NCBI GenBank assembly: GCA_017983795.1
Contig: JAGOAS010000018.1
Location: 1-64,000, forward strand
DNA length: 64,000 nt
Source: Piscinibacter sp.
GTDB taxonomy: Bacteria > Pseudomonadota > Gammaproteobacteria > Burkholderiales > Burkholderiaceae_C
Direction of reading: 5' to 3'
Each line of letters opens with the position of its first letter. Positions within the stretch are counted from its first letter, which is position 1. The notes under the pieces are model-generated. The model saw only the letters and a program-made list of their open reading frames with translations, ran no database searches and was not told the origin of the DNA. Of this stretch, positions 1,711 to 31,630 are shown piece by piece. Both the position numbers and the translations under genes were made by a program.

Positions 1711-1754
1711 GGGCGCTCGCTCAGGTGGCCGGATTAGACCACCGGCCTGCGCGC

Positions 1755-4397: not shown

Positions 4398-5309
4398 ATG
4401 TCCAGCACCATCGACGCCGTCCTGACCGACTTCGCCACGCCCTCCGCGGCGCAAGCGGAAGAGACTCCCACCCGGCGCCTGTCCAGCGACCTGCTGGTCT
4501 ACGCCCTCATCGCGGCCCTGGTCGGCGGCGCCTGGCTGTTCAGCCGCGCCGAGCTGTTCAAGGCCGGCGACGACATCGGCTACTGGCTGGGCGTGGCCGG
4601 CGGGGTGATGCTGCTGACGCTGTTCAGCTACCCGCTGCGCAAGTACGTGCGCGGCATGCACCGGCTGGGCAAGGTCAAGTGGTGGTTCCTGCTGCACATC
4701 GTGTTCGGCATCGGCGGCCCGGTGCTGATCCTGATCCACTCGACCTTCCGCGTCGGCTCGCTGAACGCCGGCGTGGCGCTCTACAGCATGCTGATCGTGG
4801 CCGGCAGCGGCGTGATCGGGCGCTTTCTCTACATGCGCGTCAACCGCGGCCTGTCGGGCGAGAAGACCAGCCTCAAGCAGCTCGAGGTGCGCGCCGGCCT
4901 GGCGCAGAGCGAGGCGCGCTCCAAGCTGCACTTCGCGCCCGAGGTCGAGGCGCGGCTGCTGAAGTTCGCCGAGGACGAACTGCACGCCAAGCCGGGCTGG
5001 CTCACGCATCTGCGCCGCATCACCGTGCTGCCGCTGCAGCAGCGCCTGGTCTACCGCCAGTGCGACGAAGCGCTGACGGTGCCGCTGCGCGCCATGGCCA
5101 AGGGCCGCGGCTGGTCGCGCAGCCAGTACATCGGGCGCAAGCGCGTGGCGCGCCGCTTCATCGAGAGCTACCTCGGCAGCGTCGTGCGCGTCGCGCAGTT
5201 CAGCGCCTTCGAGCGCATGTTCGCGCTCTGGCACGTGGCGCACGTGCCCTTCGTCTACCTGCTGCTGATCAGCGCGATCGTCCACGTGATCGCGGTGCAC
5301 GCCTACTGA
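4398..5309 (+). CDS. Cytochrome b-like inner-membrane protein, first gene of the multihaem operon
   Basis: The 303-residue protein has about five membrane segments: residues 31-49, 60-80, 96-115, 126-146 and 277-300. Histidines sit in or at the edge of the helices: His100 and His114 (14 apart, helix 3) and His279, His282, His296 and His301 in the last helix, a pattern fitting b-type haem ligation as in ferric-reductase-like or cytochrome b561-like proteins. A charged loop of about 130 residues lies between helices 4 and 5. It is followed after 7 bases by the 24-haem cytochrome gene. Likely role: passing electrons between the quinone pool or the oxidoreductase encoded at 18614 and the periplasmic cytochromes. 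The ATG at 4398 was chosen because upstream codons read as intergenic sequence. Confidence 0.75.
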   Translation: MSSTIDAVLTDFATPSAAQAEETPTRRLSSDLLVYALIAALVGGAWLFSRAELFKAGDDIGYWLGVAGGVMLLTLFSYPLRKYVRGMHRLGKVKWWFLLHIVFGIGGPVLILIHSTFRVGSLNAGVALYSMLIVAGSGVIGRFLYMRVNRGLSGEKTSLKQLEVRAGLAQSEARSKLHFAPEVEARLLKFAEDELHAKPGWLTHLRRITVLPLQQRLVYRQCDEALTVPLRAMAKGRGWSRSQYIGRKRVARRFIESYLGSVVRVAQFSAFERMFALWHVAHVPFVYLLLISAIVHVIAVHAY

Positions 5310-5316
5310 CGGGCCA

Positions 5317-7212
5317 ATGAAACCATGGGCCGCCTCGACTGCACTGCGCGCCGGCCGCTGGCTGCTGGTGGCGGCGCTGGGCATGATGGCGGCCTGGGGA
5401 TCTTCGGCCTGGGCGCAGACCATCGAGTCGGTGCTGCGCCCCGGCGACGTGATCCAGGGGCACGCCAAGTGGGAAGAGGATTGCAAGTCCTGCCACATCA
5501 AGTTCGACCGCGCCGCCCAGGACAGGCTGTGCATGGACTGCCATAAGGACATCGGCCAGGACGTGCGCGCCAAGGCCGGCTACCACGGCCGGCTGAAGCC
5601 GCAGAACTGCCGCGGCTGCCACACCGACCACAAGGGGCGCGGCGCGCGCATCGTCGAACTCGACAAGAAGCAGTTCGACCACGACAAGACCGACTTCGCG
5701 CTGCGCGGCGGGCACCAGAAGCCCGACTGCGAGAAGTGCCACGAGCCGGCCAAGAAATACAGCCAGGCCGCGCAGGACTGCAACGCCTGCCACCGCAAGG
5801 ACGACGTGCACAAGGGCTCGCTGGGCCCCAAGTGCGCCGACTGCCACACCGACAACAACTGGAAGGAAGCCAAGTTCGACCACTCGAAGACGCGTTTCGC
5901 GCTCGAGGGCAAGCACGTCGACACCAAGTGCGGCGACTGCCACAAGAACAAGGCCGACTACAAGGACGCGCCGCGCACCTGCATCGGCTGCCACAAGAAG
6001 GACGACGACGGCAACAAGGGCCACAAGGGCCAGTTCGGCGAGAAGTGCGAGAGCTGCCACAACGCCAAGGCCTGGAAGCCCTCGACCTTCAACCACGACG
6101 TCGACACCAAGTACGTGCTGCGCGGCAAGCACCGCAACACCAAGTGCACCGACTGCCACAGCGGCAACCTCTACAAGGTCAAGACCCCGCAGGACTGCAA
6201 CTCCTGCCATGAGAAGGACGACAAGCACAAGGGCAGCCTGGGCAAGGAGTGCGGCGCCTGCCACACCGAGCGCGACTGGAAGGAAAAGGGCAAGTTCGAC
6301 CACGACAAGACCAGCTTCCCGCTGCTGGGCAAGCACATCACGACCAAGTGCGACGCCTGCCACAAGACCAAGGACTACAAGGAAGCGCCCAAGGACTGCT
6401 ACGGCTGCCACAAGAAGGACGACAAGCACGAGGGCACGCTGGGCGAGAAGTGCGAGAGCTGCCACGGCGAGAAGGACTGGAAGACCACGCGCGGCCGCTT
6501 CGACCACGACAAGACCAAGTTCGCGCTGCGCGGCGGCCACGCGGCCGAGAAGGTGCGCTGCAGCGACTGCCACAAGGACGTGAAGAGCTATCGCAAGACG
6601 CCGATGGAGTGCTACGCCTGCCACAAGAAGGACGACAAGCACGAGGGCCAGCAGGGGCAGGACTGCGCCAGGTGCCACATCGACAAGGACTGGAAGACCA
6701 CGCCGCGCTTCGACCACGGCCTGACGCGCTTCCCGCTGCTGGGCAAGCACTTCAAGGTGGAGTGCAAGGACTGCCACAAGAGCCTGCGCTACAAGGACGC
6801 GAAGATCGACTGCCTGGCCTGCCACGAGAAGGACGACAAGCACAAGACGCGGCTGGGCACGGCCTGCGAGCAGTGCCACAACGCGCGCAGCTGGAAGGCC
6901 TGGGACTACGACCACGACAAGCGCACCAAGTACGTGCTCGACGGCAAGCACAAGGGCCTGGCCTGCGAGGCCTGCCACACGCGGCCGGCCGAGAAGGGCA
7001 AGGTGGTGACCTCGACCCAGTGCGTCGCCTGCCACTCCAAGAACGACGTGCACGACGGCAGCTACGGCCGCCAGTGCCAGCAGTGCCACGTCACCGATTC
7101 GTGGCGCACGATCCGCTCGGGCATGGGCCGCAAGGTCGGCGCCGGCCCGGACACGTCGACGATTCCGCGCAGCATGTGGACGCCGCGCATTCCCGCAGGA
7201 GCCTGGTCATGA
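5317..7212 (+). CDS. Periplasmic multihaem cytochrome c with 24 CXXCH motifs
   Basis: A Sec signal peptide (residues 1 to about 33, ending SSAWA-QT) precedes a 631-residue protein in which I count 24 CXXCH haem-attachment sites. From about residue 110 the chain is built from modules of about 70 residues with three haems each, recognisable by phrases such as FDHDKT, GKH..TKC..CHK, CHKKDD.H.G and KC..CH...DWK. The many extra histidines are candidate distal ligands for bis-His haems, as in NrfB/MtrA-type proteins. The mature chain is extremely Lys/Asp rich. Its stop overlaps the start of the next gene by 4 bases (ATGA). Probable role: a periplasmic electron wire linking the inner-membrane cytochrome b to the outer-membrane complex. 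Confidence 0.9.
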   Translation: MKPWAASTALRAGRWLLVAALGMMAAWGSSAWAQTIESVLRPGDVIQGHAKWEEDCKSCHIKFDRAAQDRLCMDCHKDIGQDVRAKAGYHGRLKPQNCRGCHTDHKGRGARIVELDKKQFDHDKTDFALRGGHQKPDCEKCHEPAKKYSQAAQDCNACHRKDDVHKGSLGPKCADCHTDNNWKEAKFDHSKTRFALEGKHVDTKCGDCHKNKADYKDAPRTCIGCHKKDDDGNKGHKGQFGEKCESCHNAKAWKPSTFNHDVDTKYVLRGKHRNTKCTDCHSGNLYKVKTPQDCNSCHEKDDKHKGSLGKECGACHTERDWKEKGKFDHDKTSFPLLGKHITTKCDACHKTKDYKEAPKDCYGCHKKDDKHEGTLGEKCESCHGEKDWKTTRGRFDHDKTKFALRGGHAAEKVRCSDCHKDVKSYRKTPMECYACHKKDDKHEGQQGQDCARCHIDKDWKTTPRFDHGLTRFPLLGKHFKVECKDCHKSLRYKDAKIDCLACHEKDDKHKTRLGTACEQCHNARSWKAWDYDHDKRTKYVLDGKHKGLACEACHTRPAEKGKVVTSTQCVACHSKNDVHDGSYGRQCQQCHVTDSWRTIRSGMGRKVGAGPDTSTIPRSMWTPRIPAGAWS

Positions 7213-10200
7213 GCACCGAACGGAGCTGGTTGGCCCCCTGGCTGCTCGCCCTCGCGGCGCTGCTGCTGCCGCTGGCCGCGAGCGCGCAGCCCGGCGGCGG
7301 CGCCTTCGATCACCAGACCACCGGCTTCTCGCTGACCGGCAAGCACGAGGACGTGCGCTGCGAGACCTGCCACATCAAGGGCATCTTCAAGGGCACGCCG
7401 AAAGACTGCGCCAGCTGCCACGTGCAGGGCAACCAGCGCGGCGCGCTGGCCAAGTCCGCCAAGCACATCCCGACCACGCGCGCCTGCGACGCCTGCCACG
7501 GCACCTCGTCGTTCAACGCGGTGCTGTTCTCGCACGCCAACGTCGACCCGGGCCGCTGCGCCAGCTGCCACAACAACGTGACGAGCCGCGGCAAGCCGGC
7601 CGACCACGTGCCGACCACCGCCTCGTGCGATGCCTGCCATTCGACGGTCGGCTTCGCGCCGGTGCTGAAGTTCGACCACCAGGCCTCGTCGTTCGGCAGC
7701 TGGACCTGCACCAGCTGCCACGACGGCCGCTTCGCCAAGGGCAAGCCGGCTAACCACATCCCGACGCAGGCCGCCTCGCGCTGCGAGAGCTGCCACCAGT
7801 CGGCCATCGCCGGCGGCTTCCAGAGCTGGGCCGGCGGCATGATGGACCACACCGGCTACGCCTCTGGCTGCGCGCAGTGCCATGCCTCGGGCGTCGCCAA
7901 CAGCTTCTACGGCGTGCGCATCATGTCGCCCGCCTCGCTGACGCCGCCGCACCTGCCCACGGGCGACAACTGCGAGACCTGCCACCAGGCCATCCCCGCG
8001 CAGCTGATCCCGGCCACCGGCGCAGCCTCGGTGGGCGCCACCACCTTCGCCGGCGGCCGCATGGTGCACGCCGGCATCACCAGCGGCTGCGCAACCTGCC
8101 ACGGGCCGAGCATCACCAGCGCCAGTTTCTACGGCGTCACGCCCAAGACCAACGCGGGCCTGGTGCCGCCGCACATTCCGGCGGGCACCAACTGCGAGGC
8201 CTGCCACTCGAACGCGATTCCCGCCATGCCCATCCCGGCCGCCGGCGCGGGCAGCGTCGGCGGCACCACCTTCGCCAACGGCCAGATGAGCCACGCCGGC
8301 ATCACCAGCGGCTGCGCCGCCTGCCACGGCCCGGGCATCGGCGCGAGCAGCTTCTTCGGCATCAGCGCGATCGTGGTGATGCCGCCGACCACGCCGGCCG
8401 GCCCGAACTCGCACATCCCCTCCAGCACCGCCTGCGAGAACTGCCACCAGGGCAGCACGCCGGCCGGGCTGCTGCCGGCCAACGCCACGCGCAGCGCACC
8501 CGGCTCGGCCTTCGCGACGCCGGTGCCGACCTCCGGCCAGATCCACGCCGGCGTGACCGGCGGCTGCAACGCCTGCCACGACACCGGCGCGTCGTGGATG
8601 GGCATGTCCAACTATCCGATCTCGCCCTCGACCTTCGTGATGGGCGGCCGCTACACCGGCTTCCAGACCCGCCCGACCGCCAGCGCCAGCACCTTCAGCG
8701 TGGCCGATCCGGCGCACCCGGCCAGCGGCGACTGCTCGCAGTGCCACAGCAGCACCGCCTACTTCGACGGCGCGGTCAAGCCGGCCAACCACATCCCGAC
8801 CGCCGCGACGGCGCAGTGCACGGCCTGCCACACGACGGGCGACTTCTCGACCCTGCCGACGCTGGCCAACATCCACGCCAACGCGCCGAGCACGACGAGC
8901 AACTGCGCGCAATGCCACGGCGCGGCCGCACCGAGTTTCGCGATTCCGGCGCGTGGCTTCAGCGTCGTCGGCCTGCCCTCCAACCACATCCCGACCAACG
9001 CATCCTGCGAGGCCTGCCACGTCGGCGCCGGCTCCAGCGTGCCGACCCTGCCGGTGCCCAACGGCGCGCGCTTCGCGGGCTCGGCGATGAGCCACGCCGG
9101 CATCACGAACAATTGCGCGGCCTGCCACGGGCCGGGCATCACGGCCAGCACCTTCGCCGGCATCACCGGCATCGTCGCGATGCCGCCGACCTCGCCGATG
9201 GGGCCGGGCTCGCACATCCCGTCGAGCAGCACCTGCGAGAGCTGCCACCTCGGCTCGCTGGCCAACGTCAGCGGCCTGATCCCGGCCAGCACCACGCGCA
9301 CCGCGCCGGGCACGCTGTTCGCCACGCCGCTGCCCACCAGCTCGCAGATCCACGCGGGCGTGACCAGCGGCTGCGCCGGCTGCCACGAGGCCAACTACGC
9401 GTGGATGGGCATGAGCGCCTACCCGATCTCGCCGACCGTGAAGACGGCCGGGGCGCTCTACCGCGGCTTCCAGACGCGCCCCAACGCGGCCGGCGGCACG
9501 TTCGCCATCGCCGACGCGGCGCACCCGAATTCGGGCGACTGCTCGCAGTGCCACAGCAGCACGACGGCCTTCAGCGCCATCGACAAGCCGGCCAACCACA
9601 TCCCGACCGCGGCCAGCGCCGAGTGCTCGGCCTGCCACACCAGCAGCGACTACTCGGTGATGCCCAGCATCACCAACATCCACGCCAACGCGCCCAGCAC
9701 CAGCAACAACTGCGCGCAGTGCCACGGCGCGGCGGCACCCAGCTTCGCGATTCCGGCGGCCAACTTCAGCATCGTCGGCCTGCCTTCCAACCACATCCCG
9801 ACCACCGTGTCGTGCGAGGCCTGCCACGTCGGCGCCGGCTCCAGCATCACCGCGCTGCCGGTGGTCGACGGCGCGAAGTTCTCCGGCTCGCGCATGAGCC
9901 ACGCCGGCATCACCAACAATTGCGCGGCCTGCCACCTGCCCTCGGGCAGCACGGCGACCTTCGCCGGCATCACGCGCATCGTCGGCATGCCGCCGACCTC
10001 GCCGATGGGCGCGAGCGCGCACATCCCGTCGAGCACCACCTGCGAGAGCTGCCACCTCGGCACGCTGGCCAACGTCAGCGGCCTGATCCCGGCCAGCGCG
10101 ACGCGCACCGCGCCCGGCACGCTGTTCGCCACGCCGGCGCCGACCGGAGCGCAGATCCACGCCGGCGTGACCAGCGGCTGCGCCGCCTGCCACGAGGCCA

Positions 10201-13085
10201 GCTATGTGTGGATGGGCGTGAGCGTCTATCCGATCTCGCCGACGGTGAAGACGGCGGGCGCGCAATACAAGGGCTTCCAGACGCGGCCGCGCGCGGCGGC
10301 GGGCACCTACAACGTCGCCGATGCCAGCCACCCCAGCACCGGCGACTGCTCACAGTGCCACTCGGGCACGACCGCGTTCACGGCGACCGACAAGCCGGCC
10401 AACCACATCCCGACCGCTCCCAGCGCGCAGTGCACGGCCTGCCACACCAGCACCGACTACTCGGTGATGCCGACGCTCGCCGCGATCCACGCCAACGCGC
10501 CCAGCACCACCACCAACTGCGCGCAGTGCCACGGCAGCGCGGCGCCGAGCTTCGCGATTCCGGCCGCCAACTTCAGCATCGTCGGCCTGCCGTCCAACCA
10601 CATCCCGACCAGCGCCTCCTGCGAGGTCTGCCACGTCGGCGCCGGCTCCAGCGTGCCGACGCTGCCGGTGCCCAACGGCGCGAAATTCTCCGGCTCGCGC
10701 ATGAGCCACGCCGGCATCACCAACAACTGCGCGGCCTGCCACGGGTCGAACATCACCGGCGCGAGCTTCGCCGGCATCACCCGCATCATCGTGATGCCGC
10801 CGACCTCGCCGATGGGCGCGGCCGCGCACATCCCGTCGAGCAGCACCTGCGAGAGCTGCCACGCCGGCACGCTGGCCAACGTCAGCGGCCTGATCCCGGC
10901 CAACGCCACGCGCAGCACGCCGGGCTCGCTGTTCGCCACGCCGGCGCCGACCGGGCCGCAGATCCACGCCGGCATCACCAGCGGCTGTTCCGGCTGCCAC
11001 GAGGCGGGCTATGTGTGGATGGGCATGAACGCCTACCCGATCTCGCCGACGGTGAAGACGGCGGGCGCGCAGTACAAGGGCTTCCAGACGCGGCCGCGCG
11101 CGGCGGCGGGCACCTACAACGTGGCCGACGCGACGCACCCGAGCGCCGGCGACTGCTCGCAGTGCCACTCCGGCACCACCGCCTTCACCGCGCAGGACAA
11201 GCCGGCCAACCACATCCCGACCTCGGCGTCGGCGCAGTGCTCGGCCTGCCACACCAGCAGCGACTACTCGGTGATGCCGACGCTGGCCAACATCCACGCC
11301 AACGCGCCCAGCACCACCACCAACTGCGCGCAATGCCACGGCGCGGCGGCACCGAGCTTCGCAATTCCCTCGGCCAACTTCAGCATCGTCGGCCTGCCCT
11401 CCAACCACATCCCGACCAGCGCCTCCTGCGAGGCCTGCCACACCGGTGCGGGCTCCAGCGTGCCGACCCTGCCGGTGCCCAACGGCGCGAAGTTCTCCGG
11501 CTCGCTGATGAGCCACAGCGGCATCACCAACAACTGCGCGGCCTGCCACGGCCCGACCATCGGCAGCGGCACCTTCGCCGGCATCACCCGCATCGTCGTC
11601 ATGCCGCCGACCTCGCCGCAGGGCGCGGGCTCGCACATCCCGTCGAGCACGGTGTGCGAGAACTGCCACCTCGGCAGCACGCCCAGCGCCAAGGTGGCCG
11701 CCAACGCCACGCGCACCGCGCCCGGCACGCTGTTCGCCACGCCGGTGCCGACCGGCGTGCAGATCCACGCCGGCATCACGAGCGGCTGCAACGCCTGCCA
11801 CGAAGCCGGCTACGTGTGGATGGGCATGGCCAGCTACCCGATCTCGCCGACCGTGCTGACGGCGGGCGCGCAGTACCGCGGCTTCCAGACCCGGCCGCGC
11901 GCCGCGGCGGGCACCTACAACGTCGCCAACGCCTCGCACCCGGCCAGCGGCGACTGCTCGCAGTGCCACACCGGCACGACCTACTTCAGCAGCCAGGGCA
12001 AGCCCGACGGCCACATCCCGACCACCATCGCCGCCTGCTCGACCTGCCACGTGGTGGCGGGCGACTACTCGGTGGCCGGCCTGACCACCAGCATGGCCAC
12101 GCTGCACACCGGCATCTCGAGCGGCTGCGCAAGCTGCCACACGGCCGGCGCCGGCGCGGGCCCGTTCGCCGGCTGCACCACGCAGGCCACCTGCGCCTCG
12201 CCGCCGCCGATCACCTACCAGCCCAAGACCATGCCGCTGGCGGCGGGCGGCTCGCCGACCGCGCCCTCGTCGCAGACGCACGTGCCGGTGGGCGCGACGC
12301 CCTGCGAGAGCTGCCACTCGCGCACCGTGTTCACCTCGTTCGCGGGCATGAACATGAAGGGCAACTCGACGGCGCACGGCGCGGTGTCTACCGCCACCTG
12401 CATGAGCTGCCATGAGGGCACGCCCAAATACACCTGGTACGGCGTCAGCATCACCACCAAGGGGGTGGGCCACGAAGGCCGCAAGGCCGGCCAGGACTGC
12501 GTGCCCTGCCACCAGCGCAGCTTCAGCAAATTCATCACCCTGGCGCGCGTGAAGCCGGTGCTGCGCTCGGCGATCACGATGTCCAGCCCGCGCATGATGC
12601 CGGAGTTCCCTGGTTCGACCGCCGAGGGCGGCGTGGACGTCTCGGCGCGCTTCAACCACCAGGGCGTGCTGCCCGGCCAGTGCCAGAGCTGCCACAACGG
12701 CCAGCTCGCCAAGGGCCTGCCGGTCAAGCACGTGATGACGCGCCTGTCCTGCGACACCTGCCACCGCAACACGGCGTGGACGCCGGCGCAGTTCAACCAC
12801 CAGGGTACGCTCGCGGGCCAGTGCCAGTCCTGCCACAACGGCAGCGGCGGCAGCGGCGCGACCGGCAAGCCCTCGGGCCACTTCTTCACCACGCGTTCGT
12901 GCGACAGCTGCCACCGCACCGTCGCCTGGGTGCCGGTGACCTACACGCACCTCGCGCCGGGCTACCAGCCGCAGGTGGACAAGCCGACCTGCGTGAGCTG
13001 CCACATCACCAACGGCGAAATCATCCCGCGCCAGCTGCGCGGCGGCCCGCGGCCCAAACCCATCCCGGTCACCCCGGGTTCATGA
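7209..13085 (+). CDS. Giant multihaem cytochrome c with 53 CXXCH motifs
   Basis: The 1958-residue exported protein (signal peptide MSTERSWLAPWLLALAALL, cleavage near ASAQ) contains 53 CXXCH motifs by hand count. Haems 1-10 form an irregular N-terminal part, haems 11-45 lie in five consecutive seven-haem repeats, and haems 46-53 form a C-terminal part resembling the N-terminal one (phrases such as FNHQGVLPGQCQSCHNG). In contrast with its Lys/Asp-rich neighbour, the repeat region is rich in Ala, Ser, Thr, Gly and Pro with few charges, which suits an outer-membrane or surface location. No transmembrane helix follows the signal. The start ATG overlaps the preceding stop and its own stop overlaps the barrel gene start, both by 4 bases. 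Role inferred: terminal part of an extracellular electron conduit or nanowire-like polymer. Confidence 0.9.
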   Translation: MSTERSWLAPWLLALAALLLPLAASAQPGGGAFDHQTTGFSLTGKHEDVRCETCHIKGIFKGTPKDCASCHVQGNQRGALAKSAKHIPTTRACDACHGTSSFNAVLFSHANVDPGRCASCHNNVTSRGKPADHVPTTASCDACHSTVGFAPVLKFDHQASSFGSWTCTSCHDGRFAKGKPANHIPTQAASRCESCHQSAIAGGFQSWAGGMMDHTGYASGCAQCHASGVANSFYGVRIMSPASLTPPHLPTGDNCETCHQAIPAQLIPATGAASVGATTFAGGRMVHAGITSGCATCHGPSITSASFYGVTPKTNAGLVPPHIPAGTNCEACHSNAIPAMPIPAAGAGSVGGTTFANGQMSHAGITSGCAACHGPGIGASSFFGISAIVVMPPTTPAGPNSHIPSSTACENCHQGSTPAGLLPANATRSAPGSAFATPVPTSGQIHAGVTGGCNACHDTGASWMGMSNYPISPSTFVMGGRYTGFQTRPTASASTFSVADPAHPASGDCSQCHSSTAYFDGAVKPANHIPTAATAQCTACHTTGDFSTLPTLANIHANAPSTTSNCAQCHGAAAPSFAIPARGFSVVGLPSNHIPTNASCEACHVGAGSSVPTLPVPNGARFAGSAMSHAGITNNCAACHGPGITASTFAGITGIVAMPPTSPMGPGSHIPSSSTCESCHLGSLANVSGLIPASTTRTAPGTLFATPLPTSSQIHAGVTSGCAGCHEANYAWMGMSAYPISPTVKTAGALYRGFQTRPNAAGGTFAIADAAHPNSGDCSQCHSSTTAFSAIDKPANHIPTAASAECSACHTSSDYSVMPSITNIHANAPSTSNNCAQCHGAAAPSFAIPAANFSIVGLPSNHIPTTVSCEACHVGAGSSITALPVVDGAKFSGSRMSHAGITNNCAACHLPSGSTATFAGITRIVGMPPTSPMGASAHIPSSTTCESCHLGTLANVSGLIPASATRTAPGTLFATPAPTGAQIHAGVTSGCAACHEASYVWMGVSVYPISPTVKTAGAQYKGFQTRPRAAAGTYNVADASHPSTGDCSQCHSGTTAFTATDKPANHIPTAPSAQCTACHTSTDYSVMPTLAAIHANAPSTTTNCAQCHGSAAPSFAIPAANFSIVGLPSNHIPTSASCEVCHVGAGSSVPTLPVPNGAKFSGSRMSHAGITNNCAACHGSNITGASFAGITRIIVMPPTSPMGAAAHIPSSSTCESCHAGTLANVSGLIPANATRSTPGSLFATPAPTGPQIHAGITSGCSGCHEAGYVWMGMNAYPISPTVKTAGAQYKGFQTRPRAAAGTYNVADATHPSAGDCSQCHSGTTAFTAQDKPANHIPTSASAQCSACHTSSDYSVMPTLANIHANAPSTTTNCAQCHGAAAPSFAIPSANFSIVGLPSNHIPTSASCEACHTGAGSSVPTLPVPNGAKFSGSLMSHSGITNNCAACHGPTIGSGTFAGITRIVVMPPTSPQGAGSHIPSSTVCENCHLGSTPSAKVAANATRTAPGTLFATPVPTGVQIHAGITSGCNACHEAGYVWMGMASYPISPTVLTAGAQYRGFQTRPRAAAGTYNVANASHPASGDCSQCHTGTTYFSSQGKPDGHIPTTIAACSTCHVVAGDYSVAGLTTSMATLHTGISSGCASCHTAGAGAGPFAGCTTQATCASPPPITYQPKTMPLAAGGSPTAPSSQTHVPVGATPCESCHSRTVFTSFAGMNMKGNSTAHGAVSTATCMSCHEGTPKYTWYGVSITTKGVGHEGRKAGQDCVPCHQRSFSKFITLARVKPVLRSAITMSSPRMMPEFPGSTAEGGVDVSARFNHQGVLPGQCQSCHNGQLAKGLPVKHVMTRLSCDTCHRNTAWTPAQFNHQGTLAGQCQSCHNGSGGSGATGKPSGHFFTTRSCDSCHRTVAWVPVTYTHLAPGYQPQVDKPTCVSCHITNGEIIPRQLRGGPRPKPIPVTPGS
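8193..12233 (+). repeat. Five tandem seven-haem repeats inside the giant cytochrome (807-bp period)
   Basis: The first Cys codon of equivalent CE(A/V)CH motifs is at 8193, 9006, 9813, 10620 and 11427. Spacings are 813, 807, 807 and 807 bases, i.e. 271 then three times exactly 269 residues. Each unit carries seven CXXCH motifs in the same order, with conserved anchor phrases (SHAGITNNCAACH, GFQTRP, GDCSQCH, KPANHIPT, NIHANAPST, IVGLPSNHIPT). The first unit is the most diverged and the last decays after its sixth haem. The pattern shows growth of the gene by unequal duplication. Confidence 0.9.
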
Positions 13086-15589: not shown

Positions 15590-15602
15590 AGGCGGATCGG
15601 GG

Positions 15603-16697
15603 ATGAGCGTGGAGACGGCCGGGCGCCCGAGTTCATCAGCCTCGCGCAGGCACGCGCGGCGGCGCCGCGGCACGCCCGCGTGGCAGCTGGCGCTGGCCGG
15701 CGCCGCGCTGTTCTCGGCCACCGCCGGAACGATCTACTGGCTGGCCTCGCGACCGGCTGCGCAGGCGCCGCTCGCCGCCATGCCGCCGGCCCCGCCCGCG
15801 GCTTCGGCACCCGCCTCGCAGGCACAGGCGCCGGCGCGGCAGCTCTCCGCGGACCGCGTGCAGCACATGGTCGACGAGATGAGCGAACGCGTGAAGCGCG
15901 ATCCCAAGGACAGCTCGGCCTGGGCGATGCTGGCGCATTCCTACGACATGCTCGGTCGCCGCGACGAATCGATCAAGGCCTACGCCCGGCTCGCCGAGCT
16001 GCTGCCCAAGGACGCACAGGTGCTGGCCGACTATGCGGAGGCGCTCGCTGCCACCCAGGAGCGCAGCTTCAAGGGCGAACCGGCGCGGCTGCTGCAGCGC
16101 GCGCTGGCGGCCGACCCGCGCAACCTGAAGGCGCTGCTGCTGTCCGGCAGCGAAGCCTTCGACCGCCACGCCTACCGCGAGGCGATCGGCTTCTGGGAAC
16201 GCGCCAAGGCGGCATCGAACGACGCCCGCGTGGCGCAGCAGATCGACAGCGGCCTGGCCGAAGCGCGCCTGCTGGCGGCGCGCCCGGCCTCGGCGGCGGT
16301 CGCCAAGGCGACGGTGGCAGCCCGCCCGGCGTCCGCTGCTGCTGCCGCATCGGGTCGCACCGTCTCGGGCCGCATCGTGCTCGCGCCGGCGCTGCAGTCG
16401 CAGGCCTCGCCGGACGACACGCTGTTCGTCTTCGCCCGCCCGACGCTGGGCTCGCGCATGCCGGTGGCGCTGCTGCGCAAGAAGGTGCGCGACCTGCCGC
16501 TGGAATTCCGGCTCGACGACAGCATGGCCATGGTGCCCGACATCCACCTCTCGGCGCTGAGCGCGGTGGTGGTGGGCGCGCGCATCTCCAAGCGCGGCGA
16601 TGCGACACCCCACAGCGGCGACATGGAAGGCCTGTCCGCACCGGTGACAGTGGGCGCGCGCGATGTGAAGATCACCATTTCTGAGGTGCTGAAATGA
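15603..16697 (+). CDS. CcmI/CycH-like TPR protein for cytochrome c assembly
   Basis: The 364-residue protein has one N-terminal membrane helix (about residues 26-48, WQLALAGAALFSATAGTIYW), a Pro/Ala linker, TPR helices (about 83-225: SAWAMLAHSYDMLGRRDESIKAY, then LLSGSEAFDRHAYREAI) and a C-terminal immunoglobulin-like domain (from VSGRIVLAPAL to VKITISEVLK). This is the layout of the CcmI/NrfG-type chaperone that presents apocytochrome to the haem lyase in system I maturation. A dedicated copy in this operon fits the load of 77 CXXCH sites encoded upstream. It begins 13 bases after the barrel gene and overlaps the next gene by 4 bases. Confidence 0.8.
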   Translation: MSVETAGRPSSSASRRHARRRRGTPAWQLALAGAALFSATAGTIYWLASRPAAQAPLAAMPPAPPAASAPASQAQAPARQLSADRVQHMVDEMSERVKRDPKDSSAWAMLAHSYDMLGRRDESIKAYARLAELLPKDAQVLADYAEALAATQERSFKGEPARLLQRALAADPRNLKALLLSGSEAFDRHAYREAIGFWERAKAASNDARVAQQIDSGLAEARLLAARPASAAVAKATVAARPASAAAAASGRTVSGRIVLAPALQSQASPDDTLFVFARPTLGSRMPVALLRKKVRDLPLEFRLDDSMAMVPDIHLSALSAVVVGARISKRGDATPHSGDMEGLSAPVTVGARDVKITISEVLK

Positions 16698-17245
16698 TCC
16701 CCCCCGTAGCGCCTTCGGCGCTCCCCCCGAGGGGGCGCCGCCAGCGGCCCGGCCAAGCCGGTTCCGCGGCGACTGCTTGGCTGCCGGGCGCGTGTGCAAT
16801 CGGCATCGCGCTGGCCCTGATGACGCCGCGCGCCCACGCGGTGCTGGGCGAGCCGCTGGCGCTGCCGGCCAACGCCTCACGCGCGCAGGCCGCCGCGGCG
16901 CCGCGCAGCGCGCTGCCTGCGGGCGTGCAGATGGTGGAGCGCGCCAGCGGCGACGGCGGCTGGATCCGCGAATACGTCTCGCCGCAGGGCATCGTCTTCG
17001 CGGTGAGCTGGAATACGCGCTTCAAGCCGCGCCTGGACACGCTGCTCGGCCGCTACCAGGCCGGCTATGCCGCCGCGGCCTCGCAGGCGCTGGCGCGGCC
17101 CGGGCGCGCGGCGGTGCAGCGTCAGGCGACGCTGCGCGCCGACGACCTGGTCGTGCAGTCCAGCGGCTTCCTCAACACCTTCCACGGGCGCGCCTGGGCG
17201 CCTTCGCTCGTTCCGGCCGGCTTCGATGCGGCCACGCTGCGATGA
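16694..17245 (+). CDS. DUF2844-domain exported protein
   Basis: The 183-residue protein carries the DUF2844 signature (MVERASGDGGWIREYVSPQGIVFAVSW is the core region; G.Y..GY..AA follows). The first 25 or so codons are formed by a dispersed repeat element (16699-16765), so the real start may be downstream; the hydrophobic stretch near residues 33-45 followed by ARAHA is the likely signal peptide. Function is unknown; DUF2844 genes are commonly paired with DUF3443, as here. The start overlaps the CcmI-like stop by 4 bases and the stop overlaps the DUF3443 start by 4 bases. Confidence 0.75.
   Translation: MIPPVAPSALPPRGRRQRPGQAGSAATAWLPGACAIGIALALMTPRAHAVLGEPLALPANASRAQAAAAPRSALPAGVQMVERASGDGGWIREYVSPQGIVFAVSWNTRFKPRLDTLLGRYQAGYAAAASQALARPGRAAVQRQATLRADDLVVQSSGFLNTFHGRAWAPSLVPAGFDAATLR
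16699..16765 (+). repeat. Dispersed GC-rich hairpin element, copy C
   Basis: CCCCCCCGTAGC, then a perfect hairpin GCGCC-TTC-GGCGC, then CCCCCC-GA-GGGGG and a GCGGCCCGG segment. It shares architecture with copies at 36729-36800 and 48545-48612. Here it is read as the N-terminal codons of the DUF2844 gene. Confidence 0.6.
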
Positions 17246-18591
17246 GACGGCTGCTGTCCACCCTCGGCCTCGTGCTGGCACTCGCCGGCTGCGGCGGCAA
17301 CTCGACCGAGACGACCATCACCGGCGGCGGGCTGTCCGGCAGCCCGAACGGGCCGGTGGTCTCGCTCGACCAGCCCACCGGGCCCAACACCACCGAGGTG
17401 GTGGTCGACACCGGCCCGGCCTCCGGCTTCGCGCTCGGCGCGGCCAACATCCCCTACGTCACGGTCACGGTCTGCACGCCCGGCTCGACCACCGCCTGCG
17501 TGACGATCGACCATGTCTTCCTCGACACCGGCTCGATCGGCCTGCGCCTGTTCCGCAGCGCGGTGGCGTCGCTGAGCCTGCCGGCGCTGGAGGTGCCGGC
17601 CGATGCCGCCAGCCACACGCCGGCCGGCCCGCTGGCCGAGTGCTACCCCTTCGTGCTGGGCGCGGTGTGGGGGCCGATGGCACGCGCCGACGTGCGCATC
17701 GGCGGCGAGGCCGCGCCGGCACTGCCCATCCAGCTGATCGACGAGGCGAGCGCGCCCACGCTGGCCGTGCCCACCGACTGCAGCGCCGCGGCCAACGGCG
17801 GCGTGCTCGATTCGCCGGCCAGCCTGCAGGCCAACGGCGTGCTGGGCATCGGCATGGTCAGCTACGACTGCGGGCTCAACTGCGCCAGCGGCAACTATGG
17901 CTCGGGGCACGTGCTCTACTACTCGTGCCCCAACGGCAGTGCGAGCTGCGTGCCCGCCGCGGTGCCGGGCGATCTGCAGATGCAGAATCCGGTGGCGGCG
18001 TTCCTGCCGGACGCCGATGGAATCGTGGACAACAACGGCTCGGTGATCATGATGCCGGCGGTGCCCGATCTCGGCGCATCGGTGGTGCGCGGACGGCTGG
18101 TGTTCGGCATCGGCACGCGTGCCAACAACCAGATTCCGCTCACCGCCCACGTCTACCCGGTCGACACCAACCCGGCCAACGACACCTATCTGTCGCTGGG
18201 CACCAGCGCGGGCGGACTCGCCTACCCGAGCAGCTATATCGACAGCGGCTCGAACGCGATGTTCTTCGACGACCCGGGCATCCGCATGAGCTGCCAGAGC
18301 TCCAGCGGCTCGGCCGCCACCGGCCAGGGCTGGTACTGCCCGCCCACCGTGCTGCGCCGCACGGCCACGATCACCGCCGCCGACGGCAGCAGCGGCAGCG
18401 TGGATTTTTCCGTCGCCAATGCCGACGTGCTGTTCGGCGGCGGCAACGTGGCCTTCGCCAACCTGGGCGGCTCGGCGGGCCAGGGTGCCACCACCTTCGT
18501 GTGGGGCCTGCCCTTCTTCTACGGGCGCAGCGTCTTCACCTCGATCTGGGGCCAGGCGCTCGCCACCAACGGCCCATGGAACGCCTTCTGA
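17242..18591 (+). CDS. DUF3443 lipoprotein with two pepsin-like D(T/S)GS motifs
   Basis: The 449-residue protein is a lipoprotein (lipobox LAGC, Cys17). It matches DUF3443. Two motifs stand out: VFLDTGSIGLRLF with Asp95 and YIDSGSNAMFF with Asp334. Paired hydrophobic-hydrophobic-D-(T/S)-G-S motifs about 240 residues apart are the hallmark of bilobal pepsin-like aspartic proteases. Several cysteines (for example CGLNC and CPNGSASC) suggest disulphides in the periplasm. It could be a protease acting on the surface proteins of the operon, or a catalytically dead relative. Its start overlaps the DUF2844 stop by 4 bases. Confidence 0.75.
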   Translation: MRRLLSTLGLVLALAGCGGNSTETTITGGGLSGSPNGPVVSLDQPTGPNTTEVVVDTGPASGFALGAANIPYVTVTVCTPGSTTACVTIDHVFLDTGSIGLRLFRSAVASLSLPALEVPADAASHTPAGPLAECYPFVLGAVWGPMARADVRIGGEAAPALPIQLIDEASAPTLAVPTDCSAAANGGVLDSPASLQANGVLGIGMVSYDCGLNCASGNYGSGHVLYYSCPNGSASCVPAAVPGDLQMQNPVAAFLPDADGIVDNNGSVIMMPAVPDLGASVVRGRLVFGIGTRANNQIPLTAHVYPVDTNPANDTYLSLGTSAGGLAYPSSYIDSGSNAMFFDDPGIRMSCQSSSGSAATGQGWYCPPTVLRRTATITAADGSSGSVDFSVANADVLFGGGNVAFANLGGSAGQGATTFVWGLPFFYGRSVFTSIWGQALATNGPWNAF

Positions 18592-18613
18592 GCGCGATCG
18601 CAGCGCGCAGCCG

Positions 18614-19903
18614 ATGAACTACCTCTACGTCTACGGGGCCGCGCTTGCCGTCATCCTCATCCTCTACCTGCGGCGCAGCCGGCGGCTGCACCAGAGCGCC
18701 GCGCAGGAACTGAAGGAATCACTGGAGGCCGGCCTGGCCGAGCCGGCGTCGCTGCACCCGGTGGTCAACCCGGCGCGCTGCATGGGCTCGGGCTCCTGCG
18801 CGCGCGCCTGCCCGGAAGATGCGCTGGGGGTGGTCAGGGGCAAGGCGGTGCTGATCAACGCCTCGGCCTGCATCGGCCACGGCGCCTGCCTGTCGGCCTG
18901 CCCGGTGGAGGCGATCAGCCTGGTGTTCGGCACCGAGAAGCGCGGCATCGACATCCCCAACATCAGCCCCGAGTTCGAGACCAACGTGCCGGGCATCTAC
19001 ATCGCCGGCGAGCTGGGCGGCATGGGGCTGATCCGCAAGGCCGCCGAGCAGGGGCGCCAGGCCATCGAGGCGATCCGCAAGCGCTCCGACGGCTCGCGCG
19101 AGCTCGACGTGCTGATCGTCGGCTGCGGCCCGGCGGGCCTCTCGGCCGGGCTCTCGGCCATCCACCACAAGCTGCGCTACCGCATCATCGAGCAGGAAGA
19201 CTCGCTCGGCGGCGCGGTCTACCACTACCCGCGCAACAAGATCACCATGACCGCGCCGGTGCAGCTGGCCATCGTCGGCAAGGTGAAGTTCGGCGAGGTC
19301 AGCAAGGAGAAGCTGCTCGAGTTCTGGACCGGCGTGGTGCAGTCGACCGGGCTGCAGGTGAACTTCCGCGAGCGGCTGACCGGCATCGAGCGCGACGGCG
19401 ACGGCTTCGTCGTGCAGACCGACCGCGCGCGCTACTCGGCGCGTTCGGTGCTGCTGGCCATGGGCCGGCGCGGCACGCCGCGCAAGCTCGACGTGCCGGG
19501 CGAGGAGCATTCCAAGGTGGTGTACCGGCTGGTCGACCCCGAGCAGTACCGCGGCCAGAAGGTGCTGGTGGTCGGCGGCGGCGACAGCGCGCTGGAGGCC
19601 GCCATCGCGTTGGCGGAGCAGCCCGGCACGCGCGTCACGCTGTCGTACCGCAGCGCGGCGTTCTCGCGCGTCAAGGCGAAGAACCGGGAGCGCGTGGACG
19701 CTCTGCGCACGAGCGGCGGCCTGGAGGTGCTGCTCGAATCCAGCGTGAACGAGATCGGCGTGCGCGAGGTGAAGATCGCGCAGGGCGGCCAGACGCTGGC
19801 GCGCGCCAACGATGCGGTGATCGTGTGCGCCGGCGGCGAGTTGCCGACGCCGCTGCTGCGCAAGATCGGCATCCAGTTCGAGACCAAGTTCGGCACGCGC
19901 TGA
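18614..19903 (+). CDS. Membrane-anchored Fe-S/FAD NAD(P)H oxidoreductase
   Basis: The 429-residue protein has an N-terminal membrane helix (residues 3-19), a two-cluster ferredoxin domain (56-100) and a thioredoxin-reductase-like FAD/NAD(P) module with dinucleotide-binding glycines at VLIVGCGPAGLSAG and VLVVGGGDSALEAA. No CXXC redox pair is present in the flavin domain, so it is not a thioredoxin reductase. The ferredoxin motifs are CMGSGSCARACP (Cys56, 62, 66) and CIGHGACLSACP (Cys86, 92, 96): each lacks the usual second cysteine, replaced by Ser59 and His89. Likely role: electron exchange between NAD(P)H and the membrane end of the haem conduit. It starts 22 bases after the DUF3443 gene. 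Confidence 0.8.
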   Translation: MNYLYVYGAALAVILILYLRRSRRLHQSAAQELKESLEAGLAEPASLHPVVNPARCMGSGSCARACPEDALGVVRGKAVLINASACIGHGACLSACPVEAISLVFGTEKRGIDIPNISPEFETNVPGIYIAGELGGMGLIRKAAEQGRQAIEAIRKRSDGSRELDVLIVGCGPAGLSAGLSAIHHKLRYRIIEQEDSLGGAVYHYPRNKITMTAPVQLAIVGKVKFGEVSKEKLLEFWTGVVQSTGLQVNFRERLTGIERDGDGFVVQTDRARYSARSVLLAMGRRGTPRKLDVPGEEHSKVVYRLVDPEQYRGQKVLVVGGGDSALEAAIALAEQPGTRVTLSYRSAAFSRVKAKNRERVDALRTSGGLEVLLESSVNEIGVREVKIAQGGQTLARANDAVIVCAGGELPTPLLRKIGIQFETKFGTR

Positions 19904-19934
19904 GCGCACGGCCGGACCGACGGGCGCTGCAGCG

Positions 19935-21743
19935 GTGAGCCAGGATCTCGAGCGCCGCCGTCCGCGCGATCGCAAGAAGCGGCGCCGTTGGCGCCGCTGG
20001 CGCATCAGCATCCGGCAGGCCCTGGCGATCTCCGTGCTGATCCACGCGGCGGTGCTGGCGATCCGGCTCGATTCGCCCGGCCTCGGCTTCGCCAAGCCCT
20101 GGGCCGAGCGACGCCTGCAGGCGCCCGACATCAGCATCGTGCTGGTGTCGCCGCCCGAGGCGCCCGCCTCCGAAGCCGGCTTCAACGTGGTCGTGCGCGA
20201 CAAGCCGCCGCCGAGCCGGGAGGCGCCGAAGGCGCGCGCCAAGCCGCCGCGAGCGCCTGCGCCTGCGAAGGCGGCACCTGCGCCCAAACCGCGCCGAGCC
20301 GCGCCGCCCGCGCCGAAGCTGGCCAAGGCAGCGCCCGAACCCGTGGCGGCACCGCCGCCCCCGCCACCACCGCCGGCTCCTGTGCCGCCGCCGCCCGAAC
20401 CACCGCAAGCACCCCAGCGGCCGGAGGTTCTCGCGCAGGCCACCCCCGATCCGGAACTGCCCACGCTGCCGCCGCCGGCGCCGGCCGCCTCGGAGCCCGT
20501 GCCCGCCAGCGCCGCGGCCGCCAGTGCGCCGCCGGTGGAGAACAAGGAACTCGAGGCCGAGCGGGAACGCGAGCGTGAAGCCGCCGAGCGCGCTGCGCGC
20601 GAGGCCGAGCAGCGCGCGCTGGAGGCGAAGCAGCGTGCCGACGAGGAACGCCTCGCCCTGTTGCGCCAGGAAGCGGCGCGGGAGGAGGCGGTGCGGCAGG
20701 AAGCGCTCAAGCGCGAGGCCGAACGGCTGGAGGCGGCGCGGCAGGAGGCGCTCAAGCGGGAAGCCGAGCGCCAGGAAGCGGCGCGGCAGGAAGCGCTCAA
20801 GCAGGAAGCCGATCGCCAGGAAGCGGCGCGGCAGGAAGCGCTCAAGCGTGAGGCCGATCGCCAGGAAGCGGCACGACAAGAGGCAGCGCGCCAGGAGACA
20901 GCGCGCCAGGAGGCGGCACGCCAGGAGGCGGCACGCCAAGAGGCAGCTCGCCAAGAGGCGGCTCGTCAGGAGGCAGCGCGCCAGGAGGCAGCGCGCCAAG
21001 AGGCGGCTCGCCAGGAAGCAGCGCGCCAGGAGGCAGCGCGCCAGGAGGCAGCGCGCCAAGAGGCGGCTCGTCAGGAAGCAGCGCGCCACGAGGCAGCGCG
21101 CCAAGAGGCGGCTCGTCAGGAAGCAGCGCGCCACGAGGCAGCGCGCCAAGAGGCGGCTCGTCAGGAAGCAGCGCGCCAGGAGGCAGCGCGCCAGGAGGCG
21201 GCTCGCCAAGAGGCAGCGCGCCAGGAGGCAGCGCGCCAGGAGGCGGCACGCCAAGAGGCAGCGCGCCAAGACGCCCTCAAGCGCGAAGCCGAGCGCCAGG
21301 CAGCGCTGGCGCGCGCGGCGCCGACGCGCCCTGCGCTCGAACCCCCGCGCCCCGAGAGGCCGTCGCCGCTGCCCGACAACCGCCGCCGGCGCACGATCTT
21401 CGGTCGCACCGATCGCGACGTGGTGGCGATGATGTACGCCGAGGGCTGGCGCCAGCGCGTCGAGATGGGCGCGCCCTTCGACGTGATCAAGGCCGCCAAG
21501 GTGGCGCCCTACACCAACCCGGTCATCACGGTCGCGCTGCGCAGCGACGGCAATGTCGACAGCATCGTGATCAACCAGTCCAGCGGCGTGCCCGAGATCG
21601 ACGCCGCGGTGGTGCGCATCGTGCAGGCGCTGTCGCCCTATGCGCCCTTCCCGCGCGACCTCGCCGCCGAGGTCGACGTGCTCGAGATCCGGCGCGTCTG
21701 GAGCCTGGACAACGCGGTGCGCCTGTTCGGCGCCGGGCGCTGA
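19935..21743 (+). CDS. TonB/TolA-like energy-transducer protein with a giant pentapeptide repeat
   Basis: The 602-residue protein starts with GTG at 19935; no ATG precedes the domain structure. It has a basic N-terminus, one membrane anchor (about residues 29-47, RQALAISVLIHAAVLAIRL), a Pro/Ala-rich periplasmic spacer, a long charged helix of EALKREAERQ-type then pure EAARQ repeats (20865-21269), and a C-terminal TonB-like domain (VTVALRSDGNVDSIVINQSSG ... ALSPYAPFPRDL). TonB proteins transmit proton-motive energy to outer-membrane receptors; TolA has a similar long Ala-rich helix. It is the last gene of the unit, 31 bases after the oxidoreductase gene. Confidence 0.85.
   Translation: MSQDLERRRPRDRKKRRRWRRWRISIRQALAISVLIHAAVLAIRLDSPGLGFAKPWAERRLQAPDISIVLVSPPEAPASEAGFNVVVRDKPPPSREAPKARAKPPRAPAPAKAAPAPKPRRAAPPAPKLAKAAPEPVAAPPPPPPPPAPVPPPPEPPQAPQRPEVLAQATPDPELPTLPPPAPAASEPVPASAAAASAPPVENKELEAEREREREAAERAAREAEQRALEAKQRADEERLALLRQEAAREEAVRQEALKREAERLEAARQEALKREAERQEAARQEALKQEADRQEAARQEALKREADRQEAARQEAARQETARQEAARQEAARQEAARQEAARQEAARQEAARQEAARQEAARQEAARQEAARQEAARQEAARHEAARQEAARQEAARHEAARQEAARQEAARQEAARQEAARQEAARQEAARQEAARQEAARQDALKREAERQAALARAAPTRPALEPPRPERPSPLPDNRRRRTIFGRTDRDVVAMMYAEGWRQRVEMGAPFDVIKAAKVAPYTNPVITVALRSDGNVDSIVINQSSGVPEIDAAVVRIVQALSPYAPFPRDLAAEVDVLEIRRVWSLDNAVRLFGAGR
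20865..21269 (+). repeat. 27 tandem 15-bp units encoding EAARQ
   Basis: The 405 bases are 27 in-frame 15-mers encoding EAARQ, with single-residue variants (ETARQ once, EAARH twice). The units differ mainly by GAG/GAA, GCG/GCA/GCT and CAG/CAA choices, and pairs of neighbouring units share variants, which shows recent local duplication. The region should fold as one continuous alpha-helix about 20 nm long and is a likely length-variable locus. Confidence 0.9.

Positions 21744-31626: not shown

Positions 31627-31630
<4 letters not shown>

Follow-up and report, generated by a model that had tools for sequence, protein, structure and literature searches.

In the 64,000-nucleotide stretch of DNA analysed here (positions 1 to 64,000, forward strand, of contig JAGOAS010000018.1 in the Piscinibacter sp. 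assembly GCA_017983795.1; hereafter the window), nine genes between 4398 and 21743 almost certainly encode, as judged from their sequences, a porin-cytochrome conduit of the type known as PCC3. We found that PCC3 is linked genome-wide to an Fe-S/FAD oxidoreductase, the product of the eighth of these genes, and it is this link that is new here. The oxidoreductase is very probably a functional partner of PCC3, and we lean towards its being the direct NAD(P)H-side electron partner of the PCC3 inner-membrane protein (IMP). With the same guarded confidence we read the cluster as a PCC3 conduit that includes a dehydrogenase half in the cytoplasm, an arrangement in which a split machine resembling an NADPH oxidase would feed a haem wire.

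PCC3 has been defined by an IMP of ~300 residues with an SGXXG motif and two WX3HX13H motifs, a periplasmic multihaem cytochrome (MHC), an extracellular MHC and a barrel, the periplasmic MHC having ~21-27 haems and the extracellular MHC being rich in Ala, Ser, Thr and Gly (He et al. 2017, PMC5566968). The IMP motifs found here, taken together with an MHC of periplasmic type, an MHC of extracellular type and a barrel, fit this definition. An earlier note on this DNA had described a system built differently from the Mtr, Pio and Omc systems, and the window does hold a porin-cytochrome conduit outside those three types, one that includes a membrane protein of the di-haem-b kind. Taken as a claim of new architecture the description fails, since the four-gene core matches PCC3; the locus is a real, well-formed and large PCC3 and not a new class of conduit. 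Each of the nine co-directional open reading frames (ORFs) runs from a start codon to one terminal stop, and the note's nine rightward genes with gaps of at most 31 bases agree with the reread frames and the measured distances, which in gene order are 7, -4, -4, 13, -4, -4, 22 and 31 bases. The 4-base overlaps it reported are present, at four of the eight junctions and not at five (the DUF3443 stop codon lies at 18589-18591), and its 77 c-type haem sites are recovered as 24 + 53 CXXCH motifs. Pfam backs most of the family names it gave, the exceptions being the IMP, for which there is no match at E 0.01, and the barrel, which has weak TPR and SPOR matches only, below the cut-off. The features are as follows.

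4398..5309, + strand: IMP, 303 aa, inner-membrane protein of di-haem b type (motifs, alignment)
5317..7212, + strand: 24-haem periplasmic-type cytochrome, Lys-rich (24 CXXCH; Cytochrome_C7, E 1.3e-29)
7209..13085, + strand: 53-haem extracellular-type cytochrome, Ala/Ser/Thr/Gly-rich (53 CXXCH; MtrC/MtrF domain II-IV, E 8.8e-62)
8733..11957, + strand: four consecutive 7-haem units of ~269 aa each within the 53-haem protein (CXXCH positions)
13082..15589, + strand: predicted outer-membrane barrel with periplasmic beta, SPOR-like and TPR domains (AlphaFold2, Foldseek)
15603..16697, + strand: CcmI/CycH-like apocytochrome-handling protein, TPR + Ig_CycH (PF23892, E 1.4e-32; PF23914, E 2.7e-18)
16694..17245, + strand: DUF2844 protein (PF11005, E 1.5e-30)
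17242..18591, + strand: DUF3443 protein, putative lipoprotein (PF11925, E 2.8e-106; LPAM_1 slightly below cut-off)
18614..19903, + strand: Fe-S/FAD oxidoreductase, membrane-anchored, 2[Fe-S] + FAD/NAD(P)-type (Pyr_redox_3, E 7.8e-45; Fer4 domains)
18779..18811, + strand: first Fe-S motif of the oxidoreductase, C-x2-S-x2-C-x3-C-P, residues 56-66
18869..18901, + strand: second Fe-S motif of the oxidoreductase, C-x2-H-x2-C-x3-C-P, residues 86-96
19935..21743, + strand: TonB-like protein with an N-terminal membrane segment, an RQEAA-type repeat and a C-terminal TonB domain (PF03544, E 2.8e-6; TIGR01352, E 8e-7)

The IMP carries the WX3HX13H motif twice (residues 96-114 and 278-296) and SGVIG at 137-141. 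Across the 16 stronger IMP loci (alignment A1, window included), SGXXG and both WX3HX13H motifs are present in 16 of 16 proteins, as are two HX13H pairs of the haem-ligand type, giving four likely haem-b histidines. A crude hydropathy scan merged the hydrophobic regions into four, as against the five helices given by He et al. 2017. DUF4405 matches the IMPs weakly (11 of 16 members, best E 0.0018), and a DUF4405 protein has been purified as a haem-b protein, as described in PMC11334425. An IMP is also carried by Piscinibacter defluvii SH-1. The gene order IMP, periplasmic MHC, extracellular MHC, porin is repeated in many of the loci that are sufficiently long, and a rearranged order, with the extracellular MHC and barrel before the IMP, is found at five (L116, L123, L129, L130 and L136). 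A locus labelled Candidatus Methanoperedens (L132, JAPZAO010000098.1) contains a PCC3 of Burkholderiales type, with a 59% identical IMP and a 24-haem gene, and is probably a binning error.

Three samples of genomes, drawn at the level of the family (200 genomes), the order and the phylum, were searched for the IMP and the oxidoreductase, with a full-length IMP in the family count taken as E 1.6e-74 or better and the best 5 to 8 oxidoreductase candidates per genome scored in all three samples. The full-length oxidoreductase is found in all 14 family genomes that have a full-length IMP, as against 1 of the 186 others (Fisher p 1.3e-20), in 16 of 16 IMP genomes of the order sample and 0 of 279 others (p 9.6e-27), and in 4 of 4 IMP genomes of the phylum sample and 0 of 295 others (p 3.1e-9), the p values treating as independent genomes that are not. 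Two genomes, G000 and G091, are common to all three samples; overall there are 30 different IMP genomes, and 30 of the 30 have the oxidoreductase. Matches to it of at most 202 bits in the order and phylum samples, which cover part of the profile and mostly its FAD/NAD(P) half, were not counted. Weak or partial IMP matches occur in six further family genomes (E 4e-10 to 9e-4, 25-38% identity) and weak partial ones, of at most 52 bits, in seven further phylum genomes. The enzyme is not mentioned under the term 'FAD' in the main texts of six papers on PCC3 (PMC5566968, PMC10734462, PMC13386937, PMC12442390, PMC8788666 and PMC12016527), where these letters occur once, inside an author's name.

Outside the family, the oxidoreductase gene stands beside the IMP gene and divergent from it in 14 of 14 order-sample genomes; a 24-haem gene (12 genomes) or a 27-haem gene (2 genomes) and an extracellular MHC then follow in all 14, and the barrel is present in 12, one of the other two being cut by a contig end. 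Two phylum-sample genomes show looser arrangements, the oxidoreductase lying ~4.5 kb from the IMP with CcmI between them (G344) or sharing a contig with a barrel and a multihaem gene (G240). Within the family it mostly lies beside the cluster or downstream of it in the same orientation, and in G042, G061 and G155 it is on the contig that bears the remainder of the extracellular MHC and the barrel. It is visible within the examined stretch at 25 of the 80 named loci. A search of plasmids for PCC3 returned two weak records only; a plasmid of Emticicia oligotrophica (Bacteroidota) carries the row ccsA, IMP (motifs present), Fe-S/FAD oxidoreductase, 23-haem gene and 40-haem gene, its oxidoreductase being 45% identical over 431 aligned positions.

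The oxidoreductase has one N-terminal hydrophobic segment (residues 1-19) followed by basic residues, which by the positive-inside rule would place the rest of the protein in the cytoplasm. Among solved structures its Pyr_redox domain is nearest to YpdA/Bdr and the thioredoxin reductases (TrxR). The second ligand position of the first Fe-S motif is Ser in 45 of 47 distinct sequences and Cys in two, both from outside the order, and the corresponding position of the second motif is His in 47 of 47; the Emticicia copy, which is not among the 47, has Ser and His too. The invariant cysteines are 56, 62, 66, 86, 92, 96 and 405, and no TrxR-type CXXC pair is conserved.

The lack of a conserved CXXC pair bears on a different role for the protein, that of an assembly factor which, together with CcmI, would act in the maturation of the giant cytochromes by reducing haem or apocytochrome thiols. 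Such a role would suit the resemblance of the flavoprotein domain to TrxR, the ccsA gene that heads the Emticicia operon and the CcmI-like gene that adjoins the oxidoreductase in several genomes, including one with no IMP match (G019). We nevertheless consider it improbable: apart from the missing Cys pair, CcmI is in the examined stretch in only 7 of the 14 order-sample genomes in which the oxidoreductase stands beside the IMP, and of the 66 family genomes that have a CcmI-like gene but no full-length IMP, G019 alone has the oxidoreductase.

As the direct electron partner of the IMP, the oxidoreductase would take electrons from NAD(P)H and deliver them, via FAD and two clusters, to the IMP b haems, which would pass them to the 24-haem wire and, through the barrel, to the 53-haem protein outside. 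This would be the layout of an NADPH oxidase (NOX) or ferric reductase divided between two proteins and with its acceptor shifted to the cell surface. Of the complete route from NAD(P)H or quinone that the earlier note had proposed, a component on the NAD(P)H side is probable. A comparable layout is seen in a second set of membrane proteins, which give weak, mostly partial IMP matches and nearly all have two HX13H pairs. At 13 of 20 such distant-IMP loci (L180, a duplicate of L024, being excluded) a gene for an FNR-like protein is followed by the IMP and a 7-12-haem cytochrome. Pfam found NAD-binding and 2Fe-2S domains in all six of the 13 FNR-like proteins to which it was applied, and the Methylophaga FNR-like protein has NAD-binding, 2Fe-2S and FAD-binding domains. 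These rows point to two IMP families, each accompanied by a multihaem cytochrome and by an NAD(P)H-type flavoprotein of its own. The NOX layout has been described as mimicked by MsrQ when paired with Fre, a flavin reductase that may be its donor (PMC5676040).

Several observations weigh against this account. The oxidoreductase occurs without an IMP match in G019, a metagenome-assembled genome (MAG) of 290 contigs in which a 10-kb contig bears CcmI and the oxidoreductase only, and in G130 and G199 it has no link to PCC3 genes within the examined stretches. Among the 27 named loci with both 10-kb flanks it is found at 11 and not seen at 16, so that in those genomes it often lies more than 10 kb away or elsewhere. 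The ferric-reductase domain (FRD, PF01794) has no significant match to the IMP (1 of 16 members, E 4.3), and hhalign of the IMP against E. coli MsrQ gives a probability of 0.9% (E 0.058 over 24 columns). Homology of the IMP to MsrQ or b561 was tried by profile and was not significant; with no homology to NOX, FRD or MsrQ shown, our claim is that the IMP works like these proteins, not that it is a member of their families. Seven of the 20 distant-IMP loci (L020, L021, L030, L173, L174, L176 and L178) have no FNR-like gene within ~1.5 kb, and the PCC3 oxidoreductase is YpdA/TrxR-like, unlike the FNR-type partner of the distant IMPs, which makes the parallel one of layout only. Its neighbourhood with CcmI allows an assembly role, and the choice of NADPH over NADH, like the direction of the electrons, is a matter of inference.

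As to the direction of transfer, the membrane potential would assist electrons in leaving the cell, which makes outward flow the favoured option, and reverse use is also possible. Outward flow is consistent with the behaviour of Sideroxydans ES-1, whose PCC3 clusters were both lowered on Fe(II) and were taken to play no part in that setting (PMC8788666). What tells against it is that PCC3 is frequent in iron-oxidising Gallionellaceae and found in many of them (PMC10734462), that the IMP of one PCC3 copy of Sideroxydans CL21 rose when iron oxidation was possible (PMC12442390) and that the genome under study has a RuBisCO large subunit, so that autotrophy is possible.

The same three facts favour a quinone-linked PCC3, the hypothesis published by He et al. 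2017 (PMC5566968), in which electrons from an extracellular donor would pass through the wire and the IMP to the quinone pool for electron uptake, possibly metal oxidation, and the oxidoreductase would be accessory or act on quinone. We regard this model as rather unlikely. It leaves unexplained why the IMP has the partner in all 30 sampled IMP genomes, the lowered PCC3 clusters of Sideroxydans ES-1 speak against it, and on magnetite the PCC3 proteins listed in PMC12016527 stood at low to middle proteome percentiles, with one extracellular cytochrome undetected. RuBisCO would also suit an inward use of an identical parts list, with electrons from the surface passing through the IMP to the oxidoreductase for NADP+ reduction and CO2 fixation. 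On general bioenergetic grounds a donor below about -0.3 V or an extra energy input would then be needed, because the membrane potential opposes electron entry, and we hold inward use to be very improbable. More tentative than our reading of this cluster, and in our view somewhat doubtful, is its extension to PCC3 overall: a split NAD(P)H oxidase with its acceptor outside, in which a dedicated Fe-S/FAD dehydrogenase of the cytoplasm, with non-standard clusters (Ser and His positions), would feed a di-haem b relay and, through it, a wire of constant length (24 haems) that is joined to an exchangeable surface half.

The two cytochromes are far richer in haem sites than their composition would give. 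Residue-shuffled copies have a mean of 0.26 (24-haem) and 0.30 (53-haem) CXXCH motifs, and no more than 3 in any of 1000 copies. Cys and His number 48 each in the 24-haem protein and 108 and 106 in the 53-haem protein; two His per haem are as expected of bis-His c-type haems, with the CXXCH His and one distal His as ligands. Haem spacing in the 24-haem protein repeats with a three-haem period of ~67 aa, and its gene contains a 201-base tandem repeat at 6187-6843. The units of the 53-haem protein are marked by the CXXCH motifs at residues 509, 778, 1047, 1316 and 1583 and have spacings of 28-29-34-36-40-46-56, the final copy reading 28-29-34-36-40-44-56; the protein is 14.4% A, 11.2% S, 10.6% T and 10.4% G.

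Across the named loci the periplasmic cytochrome has exactly 24 haems in 72 of 76 complete ORFs, the other four being one with 21, two pieces of one split gene (15 + 9) and one with 3. The extracellular-type cytochromes range from 4 to 56 haems across 28 complete or split ORFs. The constant count would be explained by a wire that spans a periplasm of set width, and a similar idea has been put forward in PMC10734462. At L035/L097 the 24-haem gene is broken into 15- and 9-haem ORFs that sum to 24, through a sequencing error or as a broken gene. Many MAG contigs break off within the gene for the extracellular cytochrome, whose repeats are the probable cause, and PCC3 is therefore likely to be under-counted in metagenome assemblies.

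The AlphaFold2 model of the barrel, built from 25 sequences (mean pLDDT 79.3, pTM 0.50), has 22 predicted strands at residues 399-833, behind periplasmic domains of SPOR/TPR type. Among the matches listed by Foldseek, nearly all are outer-membrane barrels (MOMP, Occ porins, FimD/PapC), with a best E of 8.8e-9 and modest TM-scores (target-normalised, at most 0.49).

The outer half of the conduit, at least the barrel and by score the extracellular MHC, has probably been exchanged relative to the genus, as judged from trees of the window with 27 chosen loci. The IMP tree groups the window with Piscinibacter (support 91/81, not starred) and rejects forcing it together with the owners of similar barrels (p 5e-4). 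The barrel tree places it among other genera and rejects a forced grouping with Piscinibacter (log-likelihood 499 lower, p 4e-36). The window's extracellular MHC scores 2539 bits to G173 and 2744 to L110, as against 374 to G091, whose protein is shorter. Holding the window and Piscinibacter together in the 24-haem tree gives p 0.048 and holding the barrel group together p 0.057; this tree is ambiguous and is therefore not used in support of module exchange. The barrel and 24-haem trees were quick ones, built without bootstrap, and L035, with its split gene, is absent from the latter. The MAG L110 is near the window in all three trees, so the exchange may predate this genome.

CcmI, DUF2844 and DUF3443 are probably also part of the exchanged outer half. 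The earlier note had the system carrying its own maturation and energy-transduction factors, a view that has to be narrowed: DUF2844, DUF3443 and the TonB-like gene are linked mainly to one subtype of outer module, and CcmI was rejected as a factor specific to PCC3, since 80 of 200 family genomes have CcmI-like matches at E 1e-10 and the genome under study has a second copy, at C11. Cytochrome maturation in this genome is of the System I type, with CcmE found and ResB not found. Rejected too was the DUF2844-DUF3443 pair as a general part of PCC3, since DUF3443 is found in 18 of 200 family genomes, 13 of these 18 without a full-length IMP. DUF3443 adjoins the PCC3 core only where the barrel, if within the stretch, is of the window type: it occurs with PCC3 genes at seven named loci, and the barrel is window-type in all five where it lies within the stretch. 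G061 and G173 have a window-type barrel followed by CcmI, DUF2844, DUF3443 and a TonB-like gene. CcmI would help to load haem, and DUF2844, DUF3443 and the TonB-like protein would serve the window's outer-module subtype in an unspecified way.

DUF3443 has the motifs DTGS (95-98) and DSG (334-336), and all 21 aligned proteins retain D95-S98, D334 and G336. A pepsin-like aspartic protease was suggested by the motif alone; this assignment was set aside and is kept as a lead. A profile search of the PDB gave no meaningful match (best E 0.68, an antifreeze protein), Asp_protease_2 matches 1 of 21 members (E 0.023), and the AlphaFold model, at pLDDT 33, is too poor to use. The strongest Pfam match of the TonB-like protein is to the HC2 histone-like family, by way of its repeats (E 1.9e-16), the TonB domain coming second; its hydrophobic segment is at 24-47, and its repeat, at 20729-21268, is a 45-base unit in 12 copies. 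Alignment A2 left out the partial or duplicate DUF3443 loci L053, L062-L066 and L068-L071 and the PCC3-linked L112, L123 and L129; A3 was made without L166 and L168, A4 without the partial L112, and A5 without the partial L080 and L142 and without L096, which is near L095.

Some loci depart from these patterns. An exception is G130 (L218, G130:C12:98000-117900), where DUF2844-DUF3443 lies ~4 kb from an oxidoreductase-CcmI pair, away from the core; no cytochrome or barrel gene was seen in this stretch, and the partial extracellular MHC of G130 is of another type. Between DUF3443 and the IMP, three loci have a protein of ~780 aa (L116:7650-9998, L123:7613-9970 and L136:6116-8500), with weak BNR/sortilin-like propeller matches in two of the three and no counterpart among the window's nine genes. 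The CcmI-like match beside PCC3 in the congener (G091:C1:5275387-5276061) is partial and contains a stop.

A scan for promoters and terminators gave signals no stronger than in shuffled sequence. Leftward genes of ParA-like, DUF5666 and DUF6502 type lie upstream of the cluster (844-4084, - strand). Elsewhere in the window are an IS481-type transposase (31627-32577, - strand), a cytochrome P460 domain protein with one CXXCH in frame (49494-50687, + strand) and an AhpF-like flavoprotein with a thioredoxin domain (53829-55394, + strand).

PCC3 is widespread in freshwater and iron-associated bacteria and has some of the largest known cytochromes, and its function has been proposed only. Its inner end has so far been guessed to be the quinone pool, and a partner in all 30 IMP genomes suggests what that end is. 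Through this link the question of what feeds PCC3 becomes directly testable, and genome surveys gain a fifth marker gene. If the NAD(P)H reading is true, extracellular electron transfer that is NAD(P)H-linked and quinone-independent would be common to Proteobacteria and at least one Bacteroidota plasmid; this reading may also help to explain the lack of PCC3 induction by Fe(II) in Sideroxydans ES-1. To judge by the distant IMP clusters, an NAD(P)H flavoprotein joined to multihaem cytochromes through a membrane relay is probably a common arrangement.

Compared with known systems, the locus shares with MtrCAB, MtoAB and PioAB a barrel with periplasmic and (in Mtr) extracellular multihaem cytochromes; those systems differ in having decahaem-sized parts and no IMP of the PCC3 type (PMC5566968), and the window's 24-haem protein, at 21.2 of 192.2 bits for TIGR03508, is not of the decahaem DmsE/MtrA type. 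MsrPQ-Fre, the NADPH oxidases and the ferric reductases also combine a haem-b membrane protein with a separate or fused NAD(P)H flavoprotein, and in them, as proposed here, electrons exit the cytoplasm (PMC5676040). The PCC3 partner differs in consisting of a YpdA-like FAD domain with two Fe-S motifs, and the proposed acceptor is a haem wire. PCC4 and the solitary IMP-multihaem clusters described by He et al. 2017 resemble PCC3 in combining multihaem cytochromes and a redox partner with an IMP-like protein that has two HX13H pairs, PCC4 differing in being without an extracellular MHC. The main text of that paper notes that some PCC4 clusters include an Fe-S gene and that a further redox protein adjoins solitary IMP-cytochrome pairs, and mentions neither for PCC3. 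The closest likeness is to PCC3 as published (PMC5566968), with its IMP, both types of MHC, large barrel and similar gene order; to the four genes described there this locus adds five, of which the Fe-S/FAD oxidoreductase is a regular partner.

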